NCBI RefSeq assembly: GCF_900103365.1
Contig: NZ_LT629703.1
Location: forward strand, 2,108,001-2,172,000
Length of the DNA: 64,000 nucleotides
Source: Afipia sp. GAS231
Lineage (GTDB): Bacteria > Pseudomonadota > Alphaproteobacteria > Rhizobiales > Xanthobacteraceae
Direction of reading: 5' to 3'
The notes beneath the pieces are model-generated. The model was not told the DNA's origin. It saw nothing but the letters and a program-made list of their open reading frames with translations, and made no database searches. Shown piece after piece: positions 15,743 through 55,406 of this stretch; within the stretch, counting starts at the first letter, position 1, and every line of letters starts with the position of its first letter. The position numbers and the translations under genes are program-made.

Positions 15743-15774
15743 CACCTCGGTCCATCGGCCTACATTAGACCCGT

Positions 15775-15893
15775 TCCGAGGGGAGCTCCGACGAGGAGCT
15801 GAGATACCGCATGCTTTGGCTGACCTTTTCGGAGGTGAAGCCGGGGACCGCGGTGACCCTTTGAACCTGATCCGGGTCATGCCGGCGAAGGGA
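15775..15893 (+). promoter_or_regulatory. TPP riboswitch (thi box)
   Basis: The conserved thi-box pieces are present in order: GGGGAGC (15779-15785), GAGCTGAGATACC (about 15796-15808), ACCCTTTGAACCTGATCC (15856-15873) and the closing GCCGGCGAAGGGA (15881-15893). The last element supplies the ribosome site (AAGGGA) for thiO, whose ATG is at 15899, so thiamine pyrophosphate binding can hide it and block translation. Confidence 0.95.
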
Positions 15894-15898
15894 CAGGG

Positions 15899-16927
15899 AT
15901 GTTACAGGGTTCGAAGTCGCGGGGGGATTCCCCCGTTTCCATCATCGGAGCGGGCATTGCCGGCGCCTGGCAGGCGCTGCTGTTCGCGCAGGCCGGCCAC
16001 GCCGTCACGCTATACGAGCGCAGTGACGACGCCATGACGCTGGCCACCAGCCATTGGGCCGGCGGCATGCTGGCGCCTTGGTGCGAGGCCGAGGCCTCTG
16101 AGCCCGTGATCGGCCGGCTTGGCTTGCGCTCGCTCGATCTCTGGCGCGAGCATTTTCCCAAAACCCCGTTCAACGGTTCGCTGGTGGTGGCGCATGCGCG
16201 CGACCGCGCCGATTTCGAACGCTTTGCCAAACTCACCACCGGCCACGTCAGGCTCGACGCGAGCGCTGTGAGCGAACTCGAACCGTCGCTGGAAGGCCGT
16301 TTCCGCGACGGGCTGTTTTATGCCGACGAAGGCCATGTCGAGCCGCGCCGCGTGCTGCCGGAGCTGCATGCGCGGATCACGGCGGCCGGCGGCACCATCA
16401 AGTTCGACAGCGACGTCGATGTCGACGATCTCGGCGGCCAAAATCTTGAAGGCATCGTGATCGATTGCCGTGGCCTTGCCGCGCGCGACCGGCAGAAGGA
16501 GCTGCGCGGCGTCAAGGGCGAGATGATCATCGTCGAAACCAGTGAGGTCGAACTGTCGCGCCCGGTGCGGCTGATCCACCCGCGCTGGCCGCTCTACGTC
16601 ATCCCGCGCGGCGACGGCAAGTTCATGCTGGGGGCGACCTCGATCGAGGCCGAGGACACCGGCGTCAGCGTGCGCTCGGCGCTGGAGCTGTTGGGTGCCG
16701 CCTATGCCGTGCATCCGGCGTTTGCCGAGGCGCGGATTCTCGAATTCGGCTCCGGCCTTCGTCCCGCCTACCCTGACAACCTGCCGCGGATCACGGTGGA
16801 GAAGAAAAAGATCGCCGTGAACGGGCTCTATCGTCACGGTTTCCTGCTGGCCCCGGCGCTGGCGGAACTGACGCTGGCGCATGTCGAGCGCGGCGCGATC
16901 GACAATGAGGTGATGCGATGCGTGTAA
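15899..16927 (+). CDS. thiO: Glycine oxidase ThiO
   Basis: The 342-residue FAD-dependent amine oxidase starts with the dinucleotide motif IIGAGIAGAWQALLFAQAGH (residues 15-34). It has the family's HWAGGMLAPWCEAE near residue 50 and the C-terminal FAD region GLRPAYPDNLPRI...NGLYRHGFLLAPALAE. It oxidises glycine to iminoacetate (dehydroglycine), the substrate ThiG uses to build the thiazole of thiamine. It is first in the riboswitch-controlled operon and overlaps thiS by 10 bases, a sign of translational coupling. Confidence 0.95.
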   Translation: MLQGSKSRGDSPVSIIGAGIAGAWQALLFAQAGHAVTLYERSDDAMTLATSHWAGGMLAPWCEAEASEPVIGRLGLRSLDLWREHFPKTPFNGSLVVAHARDRADFERFAKLTTGHVRLDASAVSELEPSLEGRFRDGLFYADEGHVEPRRVLPELHARITAAGGTIKFDSDVDVDDLGGQNLEGIVIDCRGLAARDRQKELRGVKGEMIIVETSEVELSRPVRLIHPRWPLYVIPRGDGKFMLGATSIEAEDTGVSVRSALELLGAAYAVHPAFAEARILEFGSGLRPAYPDNLPRITVEKKKIAVNGLYRHGFLLAPALAELTLAHVERGAIDNEVMRCV

Positions 16928-18676: not shown

Positions 18677-20722
<2,046 letters not shown>

Positions 20723-22278: not shown

Positions 22279-22334
22279 CTCGCTGAGATTCTGATTCCAT
22301 TTCGAGCACAAGAACAATTTTTCGTCGCAACCTG

Positions 22335-22452
22335 CGACAAAGTAGCCCGACGGGCAAATCACCCAAACCCTGTCCAGCCCTTCGCGCAAAAATAAATCGC
22401 TGGCCCCGTCGGGCAAATCAAATTCATAACTCCCGCCATCCTGTCCCACCAG
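22335..22452. repeat. Left part of the long structured repeat, cut off by the IS110 element
   Basis: Contains two CCCGWCGGGCAAATCA blocks and ends AACTCCCGCCATCCTGTCCC ACCAG. The second long-repeat copy (minus strand, about 55290-55395) has GCCCGACGGGCAAATCA and AACTCCGTCCATCCCGTCCC GAGCAG. The repeat resumes on the other side of the insertion sequence at 23761. Confidence 0.7.
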
Positions 22453-22611
22453 AGCAACTGTGCTGAAGTAAACCGGCGATCGGCCGGGCCTCAAGGCTGG
22501 TGCGGGGCGCGCCCCGCCTTCGGCGGCTTACGGCCTTGACCCCGTCCGCTCTCCGGTCTGTTGGCTTGGCATGCGCTCGGTCGATGACCGAGCGCGGTGA
22601 GGTGCGCTCGC

Positions 22612-23574
22612 TCAGTTCAGTGCGTAACGGCTGGGATCCCATTTCTGCCGTCGTGCGATCATGATGTTGAGGATGACGATGAGCTTGCGCATGCAGGCGA
22701 CAAGCACCACTTTCGGCTTCTTTCCCTTGGCAATCAGGCGGTCGTAGAAGGCCTTGAGCACCGGGTTGTTCTGCGTGGCTGCGCCGAGGCAGGGCATGTA
22801 GATGGCGTTGCGGACCCAGCGGCGGCCACCCTTGATATGACGCTCACCGCGCCGATGGCCGCTATCGTCGTCGTACGGGGCGGCGCCTAATAACGCACCG
22901 GCGATCTTGTTGCTCACCTGCCCAAGCTCCGGCATCCCCGCAATGAGGTTGGCGGAGGTCGTTTCGGCGAGGCCCGGCACGCTCTCGATGATCTCGGCAC
23001 GCTCGGCAAGGTGTGGCGAGGCCTTGATCTTGGCCGCAATTGCCGCCTCGAGCTTGGCAATTTCACTGACCAGATTCTTCAAGACGCGGGCATGCGTTTT
23101 CTGAACCAGTCCTGGTGCAGCATGCTCGTTTTGGCTTTGCAAGCGCGTCTTGAGATCACCCAGACCGATGCGCGCTTTCACCAGCGCCAGCAACTCCTCG
23201 CGTGCGGCATCGTGGGTCTGGCTCGGCGCCTCGGTAAATATCTCGGCGAACCAGGCGATCATCTCCGCGTCGATCACATCGTTCTTTGCCAGCCGGCCGG
23301 CCGATAGCGCGAAGCTGCGGACGCGTTTGGGGTCGACGATCCGCACCTCGACACCGGCCTGGCGCAGTAGCTTGGCCCAGTCACGCTCGTAACCGCCGCT
23401 CGCCTCCATCACAGCCCTGGTTGCCTTGTACTTGCGAAGCCAGGCCACCAGCTTGCGGTGGCCTTGTCCCGTGTTCGGACAGACCTGACGCAATGACAGC
23501 GAGCGAATGCACGCATCCACCTTGTCCTTTGCCACATCGATGCCCACGACAATGCGATCATCTTGTGCCATCAT
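22612..23574 (-). CDS. IS110-family transposase (DEDD recombinase)
   Basis: I chose the ATG at 23574, after a GGAAGGGAG ribosome site, giving about 320 residues. The N-terminal RuvC-like DEDD domain shows VVGIDVAKDKVDA (first Asp), AVMEASGGYERDW (Glu) and LAKNDVIDAEMIAWFA (two Asp). The C-terminal Transposase_20 part has ESVPGLAETTSANLIAGMPELG, the catalytic-serine region GAAPYDDDSGHRRGERHIKGGRRWVRNAIYMP (read in pieces), and ends KWDPSRYALN. It is full length with no frameshift, so the element could be active. These enzymes use a structured RNA from the element to choose target and donor. Confidence 0.95.
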   Translation of the reverse strand: MMAQDDRIVVGIDVAKDKVDACIRSLSLRQVCPNTGQGHRKLVAWLRKYKATRAVMEASGGYERDWAKLLRQAGVEVRIVDPKRVRSFALSAGRLAKNDVIDAEMIAWFAEIFTEAPSQTHDAAREELLALVKARIGLGDLKTRLQSQNEHAAPGLVQKTHARVLKNLVSEIAKLEAAIAAKIKASPHLAERAEIIESVPGLAETTSANLIAGMPELGQVSNKIAGALLGAAPYDDDSGHRRGERHIKGGRRWVRNAIYMPCLGAATQNNPVLKAFYDRLIAKGKKPKVVLVACMRKLIVILNIMIARRQKWDPSRYALN

Positions 23575-23760
23575 CCACTCCCTTCCTTGCTCGGTACGGG
23601 CTCGAAGCCCTTGCAACTGTTCGGGTTGAGGAAGACGCCGGAGCTGTCCCTCGCTCTGGTACAGGCTCTGTCGCCTTTGGGGCGTACGGGCTCAGTTCCA
23701 GCAACGGGCGGTTGGTCCGCAACCGCCCGTTCGCTCATTCTGCCAAATTTTTTGGACACA
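23575..23760 (-). ncRNA. Candidate bridge-RNA region of the IS110 element
   Basis: This 186-base noncoding stretch lies between the element's edge and the transposase start. It contains a 12-bp stem (AACGGGCGGTTG/CAACCGCCCGTT, 23704-23732) and further pairing segments toward the gene. In the IS110 group the bridge RNA is transcribed from this side. The other noncoding end (22453-22611) also has a good hairpin (GCGCTCGGT/ACCGAGCGC), so a 3' RNA of the IS1111 type cannot be excluded. Confidence 0.45.
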
Positions 23761-24102
23761 AGGGGCGTAGGCCATCGTCGCAAACGAGGGGCAGGGAGCG
23801 GTGGACGTGGGATCGCGACTGACGAGCGTGGTCTTTACGTACGGTGAAATCGTTTGGGTCCGACGCCCCGATGCAGGCGTCAAGTTCGAAGGCAGCCAAC
23901 GCTGCCCGAGAGCGATGGTGTCACAAAAAGCAGGGTCACCAGGACGATCTCGTATAAGCCGTAAAGCCATTGCGCAGGGAAGGCCGGAGGCTTCCGCCAA
24001 ACCTGTATGCTCGTGCGCAAATCTTGTTGCAACTATCGCGTACGAGACCGCGGGTGCGGCGCGCACCCGGTCTTCCCTGCGCCCTCTGATTTCCAAGAGG
24101 GC
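23761..24102 (+). ncRNA. Structured repeat element, copy 1 (candidate RNA with a four-way junction)
   Basis: Core 23972-24082: closing helix GCGCAGGGAA (23972-23981) with TTCCCTGCGC (24073-24082). It encloses a hairpin GG-C-CGGA/TCCG-CC (23982-23998), a helix CTCGTGCGC/GCGTACGAG (24010-24018 with 24038-24046) around a conserved CTTGTTGCAAC loop, and a hairpin GGGTGC/GCACCC (24052-24068). An outer hairpin GCCCTCT/AGAGGGC follows (24081-24102). A leader identical in both copies for 38 bases lies at 23934-23971, and a GACGCC/GGCGTC hairpin with flanks at about 23838-23885. No protein frame is supported on either strand. The second copy is at 54960-55292, minus strand. Confidence 0.65.
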
Positions 24103-24153
24103 AAACGAAATGGAAAACTTCGGGCAGATGATGCCGCGAGAATGATTTCCGCT

Positions 24154-24294: not shown

Positions 24295-24843
24295 TTATTG
24301 GCTCAACGACGCCAACTCCCGCGCAATATTCTCGCGGGCCTTGCGGTCATACGCCTCGGCAAAGCCGGCATCGGGAAAGATGAACGGGCGGGCCGCGAAG
24401 TGACCGAGCACCCTGGCGCGGCCGGCACGGTAGTCGCGATCCGCCACATGGGCGTACTCCTGCCGGATCGCAGCCGCATAGGCGTCGTACCGCGCGGGCT
24501 CCGCGCCGAGGATGCTGAGGTCGATCGAGATCAGGATTGCCCCAAGGCGGTCATGCGGTTCGACCTCGTGGGTTTTGGTCAGGCGGATAAGCCGGCCCAC
24601 CTCCGCACGAAGATCCTGGCGGACGTGCTGCTCGGCCAAACGAGCGCTGAGATCTTCGTTGTCGGCCCGCGTGGCATCGTAAACGACATCGTGCCACCAG
24701 ATGGCCTCGGACAGAATCTCTCGCTCGGCCGCCGAAAGATTGTCCACCCGCGCCAGCGCGGCGAGGCAATCTTCGATATGCGCCAGGTTGTGATAGTGAC
24801 GACACGGCGCCGCGTAAGCCGCGGCCAGCGATTCGCGGTCCAC
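24295..24843 (-). CDS. HD-superfamily metal-dependent phosphohydrolase
   Basis: This 182-residue protein starts with GTG at 24843 and has the HD metal-binding pattern: HYHNLAHIEDCL (residues 16-27), AIWWHDVVYDATRADNEDLSARLA (HD pair near 50) and ILISIDLSILGAEPARYDAYAAAIRQEYAHV. It matches the family often named 'N-methyl-D-aspartate receptor NMDAR2C subunit-like', predicted cytosolic phosphohydrolases of unknown substrate. It begins 7 bases after the stop codon of the secreted-protein gene upstream, so the two are likely co-transcribed. Confidence 0.82.
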   Translation of the reverse strand: MDRESLAAAYAAPCRHYHNLAHIEDCLAALARVDNLSAAEREILSEAIWWHDVVYDATRADNEDLSARLAEQHVRQDLRAEVGRLIRLTKTHEVEPHDRLGAILISIDLSILGAEPARYDAYAAAIRQEYAHVADRDYRAGRARVLGHFAARPFIFPDAGFAEAYDRKARENIARELASLSQ

Positions 24844-53754: not shown

Positions 53755-53832
53755 ATCATTCCGGGATGGTGCGTTAGCACCAGACCCGGAAGTTCGAGAT
53801 TCCGGGTTCGCGCTAAGCGCGCCCCGGAATGA
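53755..53832. repeat. Short palindromic repeat (ATCATTCCGG...CCGGAATGACG family)
   Basis: ATCATTCCGGGATGGTGCGT opens and GCGCGCCCCGGAATGACGG closes. A shortened member of the family at 18677 and 44290. Confidence 0.78.
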
Positions 53833-53846
53833 CGGCCTTTCGGCCG

Positions 53847-54776: not shown

Positions 54777-54959
54777 GAAATCCTCCCGGCTTGTAGCTGC
54801 TGGCGGATTCCAGTTCGGCCCCGCACGCACACAATTTCGTTGCTTCGGTTATGGCAAAGTCGTCAGGGATTGCCAACCCGACTGCGAGCATGGCGGTATG
54901 TTCTCGCGGCGCCAGGCGCCCGAAGTGCTCCGATTGCTCTCGCCCATGAAAATCAGAGG

Positions 54960-55292
54960 GCGCAGGGAAAGCCGGGTACACGCTGTACCCGCGGTCTCGC
55001 GTGCGTGTTGCACAAGAATAGGCTGCACACGAGCATACAGGTTCAGCGGAGGCACTCCGACTTTCCCTGCGCAATGGCTTTACGGCTTATACGAGATCGT
55101 CCTGGTGACCGGCTTTCTTGCCACCATCGCCGGCTTGAAGCGTTAGCCTCTCGCCAACTTGACGCCAGCACCGGGGCGTCGGACCCAAACGATTTCACCG
55201 TACGCAACCGTGCGCTCGTCTTTCGCACCATCGCGTCCACCGCATCCCCGCCCCACGTTCGTGACGATGGCCAACGCCCTCTGCTCGGGACG
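54960..55292 (-). ncRNA. Structured repeat element, copy 2 (candidate RNA with a four-way junction)
   Basis: Read on the minus strand this is the uninterrupted homolog of 23761-24082. Core 54960-55072: closing helix GCGCAGGGAA/TTCCCTGCGC, then hairpin AG-T-CGGAG/CTCCG-CT, helix CTCGTGTGC/GCACGCGAG and hairpin GGGTAC/GTACCC. The 38-base leader at 55073-55110 is identical to copy 1. Further upstream the block TACGGTGAAATCGTTTGGGT (about 55183-55202) and the GACGCC/GGCGTC hairpin are kept. Base changes between copies preserve pairing. It lies between the lactonase gene and a small exported-protein gene; no protein frame supported. Confidence 0.65.
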
Positions 55293-55406
55293 GGATGGAC
55301 GGAGTTGTAGGTTTGATTCCACCCAGCCGCGAAGCGGAATATTTTCGCGCGAAGAGATTGACCCACATCTTGGGTTGATTTGCCCGTCGGGCAACATGCC
55401 TATGGT

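Follow-up and report, generated by a model that had tools for sequence, protein, structure and literature searches.

To our knowledge, bacteria have few large RNAs whose fold is conserved, and the roles of most of them are open. The ones closest to the present case are GOLLD, ROOL, OLE and HEARO, which are hundreds of nucleotides long and have multi-branched folds supported by covariation. In eukaryotes, SINEs are short dispersed RNA genes that consist of a promoter and a folded RNA and are moved in trans. Bradyrhizobium genomes contain dispersed intergenic repeats with stem-loops, the REPs and REPINs, comprising the Br-REP1, Br-REP2, GTAG and CGTC families. Dispersed repeats can also be targets of insertion sequences of the IS110 family, which use a bridge RNA; IS621 is described with REP targets (PMC11208160, PMC1525189) and with a CT core (PMC11208160).

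In this work we focused on a 64,000-nucleotide stretch of bacterial DNA, referred to as the window, in which a structured repeat in two copies had been proposed from the sequence alone (the original prediction). Both copies belong to a larger element that probably encodes a large RNA without a match in Rfam; it occurs dozens of times in nitrogen-fixing Bradyrhizobium and, in relatives, is preceded by a recognisable promoter-like sequence. We describe its extent, fold and distribution, its use by an IS110 insertion sequence, and the readings that may account for its dispersal.

Methods

The genome containing the window (the source genome), one contig of 7.58 Mb, was searched using 350 bases of copy 1 as a query, and 40 copies, those of this DNA search, were fetched with their flanks. 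A covariance model of the core, named R1 (142 positions, 31 pairs), was built from 71 sequences and searched in genome samples of the family, the order and the class, with stricter filters by which weak matches are lost. Covariation was evaluated with a home-made test modelled on R-scape, and distinct from it, consisting of a G-test with average-product correction. For the null, the inferred substitutions were re-placed on the tree with per-site rates in 60 simulations.

Results

Reading and folding both stretches of the window confirmed that they are homologous and fold alike (Table 1). The repeat unit, which is intergenic, is about 0.55 kb long and thus larger than first noted. Position 23761, originally taken as the start of the repeat, is in fact the right junction of an IS110 insertion sequence that splits copy 1, the element extending from ~22331 to ~24149. 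The original prediction also lacked the 5' portion of the RNA, the predicted promoter, the REP-like neighbours and the occurrence in 18 genera. Upstream of the insertion, copy 1 consists of upstream hairpins, a stretch with weak resemblance to a promoter and ~20 nt from the start of the predicted RNA, and it stops at the left junction CCAGAG.

Table 1. Copies of the element and inserted IS110 in the window, followed by the parts of the predicted RNA in 5' to 3' order
Feature	Position	Strand	Basis
Copy 1, 5' part	22331..22454	+	profile hit hmm 10-134, E 1.2e-19
IS110-family insertion sequence in copy 1	22455..23760	-	junctions compared with uninterrupted copies
IS110 recombinase, 334 aa	22612..23616	-	Pfam DEDD_Tnp_IS110 3.2e-20, Transposase_20 1.4e-11
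Predicted bridge-RNA region: stem-loop AACGGGCGGUUG/CAACCGCCCGUU, then loop with UACGCCCC and CAGAG	23617..23760	-	single-sequence fold
Copy 1, predicted RNA body after the IS110 insertion	23761..24149	+	profile hit hmm 125-523 at 23753-24149, E 1.4e-109
Copy 1, core domain: GCGCAGGGAA/TTCCCTGCGC stem with branched interior (inverted arms 23972-23987 and 24067-24082)	23972..24082	+	covarying pairs
Copy 2, whole element without IS110	54886..55397	-	profile hit hmm 19-531, E 3.1e-131
Copy 2, predicted RNA	~55300 down to 54905	-	estimate from alignment
Copy 2, core domain	54960..55072	-	sequence and profile hit
Helix at the very 5' start, UCCCGCCCC/GGGGCGGGA			consensus fold
Large multi-branched domain, closed by GCGGUGG/CCAUUGC			consensus fold
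Conserved linker AAGCCGUAAARCCAU			consensus fold
Core stem with branched interior, GCGCAGGGAA/UUCCCUGCGC			consensus fold
Small hairpin after the core, CCCUC			consensus fold
Last hairpin, CGGGCGC/GCGCCGCG			consensus fold

The conserved span, as seen in 21 copies without IS110, runs from TGCGACAAA...GGGCAAATCA at the 5' end to ...CTCCGGGCGCATCGCGCCGCGAGAA at the 3' end, and the same span aligns across other Bradyrhizobium genomes at ~62-79% identity among the matches listed (130 of 146). By eye, near-identical copies part ways just beyond these ends. Most of the RNA is enclosed by an inverted motif, CAGAGGG(G)CG ... CGCCCTCTG, and the conserved unit reaches past this motif on both sides. Open reading frames run across element copies; the conserved signal is the pairing. 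A conserved open reading frame adjoining copy 1 (24295-24843, minus strand) has no Pfam match, and similar DNA occurs in 8 relatives of the genus.

The predicted RNA would be ~400 nt long, and ~530 nt in some other genera. RNAalifold, applied to 93 full-length sequences from the whole genus, gave -104 kcal/mol for the sense strand against -34 for the other strand, and the genus-wide structure pairs showed a strand-specific bias, with 991 G.U against 44 A.C cells. Among the 40 copies of the source genome 98.5% of 3,640 pair cells were paired, in a structure derived from the same copies, with 423 G.U against 16 A.C cells and a double change in 22 of 91 pairs. Addition of 18 sequences from other genera yielded a consensus of 421 columns and 116 pairs at -276.5 kcal/mol (ribosum scoring). 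In this combined alignment 92.5% of the cells pair, and the A.C cells rise to 233 against 1,422 G.U, which we attribute to misalignment of the variable arms.

When only the structure pairs were tested for covariation, 20 of the 116 reached E<0.05, compared with a mean of 0.03 under the null and at most 1 in any of the 60 simulations; with all column pairs tested, two passed, both inside the structure. Because the real structure was derived from the alignment used in the test, 12 simulated alignments were also folded independently; they reached -138 to -162 kcal/mol, and 11 of them had no covarying pair and the remaining one a single pair. An earlier test with a cruder null had given five hits, two of them outside the structure: 393-411 is not a standard pair, and 241-307 may be a pseudoknot or a misalignment. 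The test that we rate as the cleanest drew on 20 other-genus loci with 21 matches, all of them absent from the sequences from which R1 was built. There, 97.8% of 651 core cells were paired, in an alignment fitted to R1 and hence leaning towards the model, pairing dropped to 31-56% when the partner was slid, and 18 double-change cells were counted against 3.6 in shuffles.

The tree-based covariation, the other-genus test and the strand-specific G.U bias bear out the original view that selection acts on the RNA fold, and constitute strong evidence for a new structured RNA family. Simple repeat decay was rejected, given covariation in many inner helices, including in other genera. The individual changes that had first suggested compensation fared unevenly. 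That from GGGTGC/GCACCC to GGGTAC/GTACCC is a real, full double change. In the pair given as GG/CC to AG/CT pairing is indeed kept, but the actual change is from GG/UC, with one G.U, to AG/CU and is partly wobble; likewise, the CTCGTGCGC stem keeps its pairing with one G.U in each copy, so that its compensation is also partly wobble.

The four-way junction proposed for the core is plausible, its GGGUGC hairpin being well supported and the small hairpin beside it only suggestive. Among 21 sequences from other genera, the former appears as GGACGC/GCGTCC (9), GGGTGC/GCACCC (8), GGATGC/GCATCC (2) and GGGTGC/GCGCCC (1), one being unmatched by the pattern, whereas the latter forms five pairs in 16 of 38 distinct segments, swapped arms doing so in 29.7%. 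RNAalifold also offered a CCUGU/GCGGG pairing that competes with part of the GGGUGC hairpin; it is disfavoured, since the changes in other genera favour the hairpin. The CTTGT(T)GCAAC apical loop, originally given as conserved, is the most variable part of the core; free variation is seen in the loop at the tip of the CUCGUGUGC stem.

No Rfam 15 family, HEARO included, matched the element. At the gathering threshold the whole window contained only a TPP riboswitch, and eight loci of other genera gave no match; at loose thresholds (E up to 5), one Bradyrhizobium and one other-genus copy retrieved unrelated families at chance level only. Nor did we find a description of the element in the open-access literature searched. 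The TPP riboswitch (RF00059, 69.7 bits) lies at 15769-15911 on the plus strand, ~2.9 kb upstream of thiC (18803-20722).

The DNA search located the element in at least 40 places of the source genome (the best 40 of 78 candidates scored), 77-100% identical and with E of 2.3e-65 or better. R1 found 46 core loci there, with E no higher than 7.7e-18; the remaining 41 rows were judged on inspection to be weaker signals from the opposite strand at the same places. With DNA searches, 33 of 36 genomes of its own genus matched, the source genome included, and none of 24 from other genera of the order. The original statement that such sequences are multi-copy in Bradyrhizobium proved right. R1 reached further. 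Among the 149 genomes sampled from the family, 53 matched, 46 of them from outside the own genus, and the matching genomes cover 18 of 47 genera; R1 gave no match in the other 96 at this sensitivity, from which it follows that the element is not essential. There were 1 to 21 matches per genome and only 1-3 in many genomes of other genera. These figures are not copy numbers, since scoring was limited to the best 21 candidates of each genome and may have counted opposite-strand echoes. In the order sample 6 of 199 genomes matched, all in the own genus, and in the class sample 1 of 289, the source genome. A pattern scan of named species genomes returned at least 120 rows, and the titles among the matches listed were Bradyrhizobium, Bradyrhizobiaceae, one Hyphomicrobiales MAG and one 'bacterium' MAG. 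The plasmid collection had no match to a Bradyrhizobium or an other-genus query, the phage collection none to the other-genus query, and an exact 35-base pattern of the element was absent from viral contigs.

A promoter-like sequence precedes the 5' helix in other genera. In locus L241 it reads TTGACA-18-TATATT, agreeing with the consensus at 11 of 12 positions, where shuffles give 0.3 such sites; a sense-strand terminator was not found at this locus. The strict pattern TTGAC...TTATA, which was written after viewing the sequences, stands before 8 of 18 other-genus copies; the corresponding value for shuffled sequence is 0.0004. By eye, others such as L231 and L239 have near versions, and L229 and L232 none. 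Also by eye, Bradyrhizobium copies have weaker versions at the same place, e.g. TTGAGC...TTTAAC, and those of both window copies are weak. The element is likely to be transcribed, its own sigma-70-type promoter being predicted. At the other end, 18-47 nt past the last hairpin, a TGTTTGA motif, which we take to resemble the rRNA boxA, was found in 8 of 15 other-genus copies (L226, L229, L230, L232, L235, L237, L241 and L243).

The insertion in copy 1 sits between CCAG-AG and AG-GGGCG, its target being CGCCC-CT-CTGG in the sense of the IS. Under the published pairing rules (PMC11208160), the left guide UACGCCCC fits by eye 8 of 9 positions of TACGCCC-CT, and CTCTG is matched by the right guide, CAGAG. 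In a related IS110 copy AACGCCCU takes the place of UACGCCCC. The same fixed site holds an IS110 in 19 of the 40 fetched copies of the source genome. The recombinase of the insertion in copy 1 has 34 relatives there, itself included. Of 22 at 80% identity or more, 21 are inside the element, where they carry a guide-like loop that fits the site; 20 of them occupy this site, including L075 in a truncated element, and one (L095) the inverted 3' motif. The last, L091, lies elsewhere. Among the 12 more distant relatives 8 were fetched, and seven have no element nearby; the eighth (L103) has only a 5' element fragment 1.4 kb away, which belongs to the neighbouring L094 copy. At one locus (L030, 2022200-2028600 of the source genome) an RNA copy stands between two opposite IS110s, one at the 5' motif and the other at the inverted 3' motif. 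An IS110-type split was not seen in 139 loci of other genomes, where 38 element matches are cut by the sequence end, so that use as a landing pad appears local to the source genome. As the insertion lies ~20 nt inside the predicted RNA, it would part the promoter from the RNA body.

Within the source genome, 34 of 40 copies have a REP-like tag no more than 130 nt beyond the downstream end of the aligned unit, whereas such a tag occurs in 3.7% of 5,000 intergenic windows used as controls. The tag patterns were chosen after reading the flanks; an earlier k-mer definition of REPs had found none. The REP-like palindromes that follow most copies (e.g. L006-L044) are of several different families, and by eye many 5' flanks resemble an inverted REP in degenerate form. 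Our home-made gene calls gave both neighbours for 37 copies, 3 of the 40 having been dropped, and in 26 of these 37 the upstream gene is co-directional with the RNA. Elsewhere in the window a short repeat, GAGATTCCGGGTTCGCGC...GCGCCCCGGAATGA at 53800-53836, resembles by eye the published Br-REP2 consensus, and the query end containing it matched very many places in the genomes searched.

Discussion

We propose that each copy is a gene for a non-coding RNA family outside Rfam, with its own promoter and a fold of ~400 nt, which has spread in a non-autonomous, SINE-like manner and of which IS110 is a secondary user; we consider this moderately probable. The sigma-70-type promoter of the element would drive the ~400-nt RNA, whose fold, kept by compensatory changes, would serve the spread or upkeep of the element itself, movement being provided in trans by an enzyme outside those found here. 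The IS110 bridge RNA would read the motif CGCCC-CT-CTGG at the 5' side of the structured RNA and, in one case, the inverted counterpart of this motif at the 3' side. The repeat would thereby become a landing pad for IS110, where insertion separates the promoter and the RNA body. Only tentatively would we put forward the full picture of a bacterial counterpart of SINEs, in which a self-transcribed RNA gene of ~400 nt both spreads in trans and is a landing pad for the bridge RNA.

Life as a non-autonomous mobile element would be the best reading of the copy number, of the lack of a shared neighbour and of absence in relatives. All 21 uninterrupted copies of the source genome are nearest to another copy of the same genome, the 19 interrupted ones having been left out of the analysis. 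Over 16 multi-copy genomes this holds for 39 of 70 copies, compared with 6.3 in shuffles (maximum 18), but without the source genome for only 18 of 49. Beside the same neighbour gene, on ~2-2.7 kb fetched on the relevant side, the element was absent in all relatives, i.e. present in 0 of 8 for copy 1 and 0 of 12 for copy 2; these sites were anchored on one neighbour gene, the gene of the opposite side not being found in the fetched stretches. Such absence would fit a lineage-specific insertion and, with a one-sided anchor, is no proof of it. We grade mobility lower because of this anchoring and of the 18 of 49. No shared neighbour transposase was seen in the 20 other-genus loci, and tRNA genes occur in 5 of them, the nearest ~0.7 kb from the RNA. 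By eye, the flanks show no clear target duplication. When the RNA was compared with its own flanks, guide-like matches were shorter than in swapped combinations in three of four cases and slightly longer in the fourth, the 3' flank on the same strand (mean 5.78 against 5.13; at least 10 bases in 3 of 40 against 4.3%), which is taken as no signal.

The copies might instead encode a regulatory or housekeeping RNA of the host, the fold being kept for the cell and the gene passively multiplied, for example along with REP palindromes, the copy number then being a side effect. The REP-like tags, the TGTTTGA motif and the 1-3 matches in many other-genus genomes would fit it, and so would five loci in three other genera (L228, L230, L234, L242 and L243), where the RNA lies 85-316 nt upstream of, and in the same direction as, the same gene, presumably lytic-transglycosylase-like. 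As these loci keep the RNA beside that gene, some places are old, and they fit an old resident as well as a mobile element. Against a host function stand the 96 family genomes without a match, neighbours that vary between most loci and the cluster of near-identical copies in the source genome, and we regard it as doubtful.

A fold acting as single-stranded DNA, i.e. as a transposase or recombinase substrate on one strand like IS200/IS605 ends or integron attC, appears quite improbable. It would likewise tolerate G.T on one strand only and agrees with the dispersed copies and with the reverse transcriptase search (RVT_1), negative in the source genome and positive in 3 of 14 control genomes. 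The promoter-like pattern before the fold in other genera speaks against it, as do some 400 nt with many inner helices, the one-strand DNA substrates that we know of being far smaller. Also against it, the Y1 transposase domain Y1_Tnp, through which a RAYT would move a REPIN, had 0 matches in the source genome, the same search being positive in 5 of 14 control genomes; PF14239, the IscB-type protein of HEARO/IscB systems, had 0 matches in the source genome and in 0 of 14 controls. An ordinary MITE or palindromic transposon end, whose complementarity would stem from inverted ends, accounts for the inverted motif and the dispersed copies and is most improbable, the palindromic end being rejected, since the covarying pairs lie in many nested helices rather than one long inverted repeat and hold in other genera, and the conserved unit continues beyond the motif on both sides.

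Genomes with a single match would permit a clean deletion, and in those with many copies mobility could be put to the test. With the IS110 insertions, nature offers an example of a transposon, predicted to be RNA-guided, whose target is another family of repeats, by which it would be kept out of genes.

Compared with known systems, the element resembles GOLLD, ROOL, OLE and HEARO in its size and its multi-branched, covarying fold, and differs from them in having no Rfam match, in its confinement to one alphaproteobacterial family (in our samples) and in its dozens of dispersed copies in one genome. Like the REPs and REPINs of Bradyrhizobium, it is a dispersed intergenic repeat with stem-loops, but it is a unit of ~0.55 kb with a ~400-nt multi-branched fold rather than a palindrome of 20-40 bases, and the published Br-REP consensus sequences differ. 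Unlike SINEs, it is bacterial, with a sigma-70-type promoter and no reverse transcriptase found in the source genome. The insertions share with IS621 and its REP targets the DEDD recombinase, the CT core and a guide loop matching a dispersed repeat; they differ from the cases described there (PMC11208160, PMC1525189) in that the targeted repeat is, in its turn, a large structured RNA element and that insertions are seen only in the source genome.
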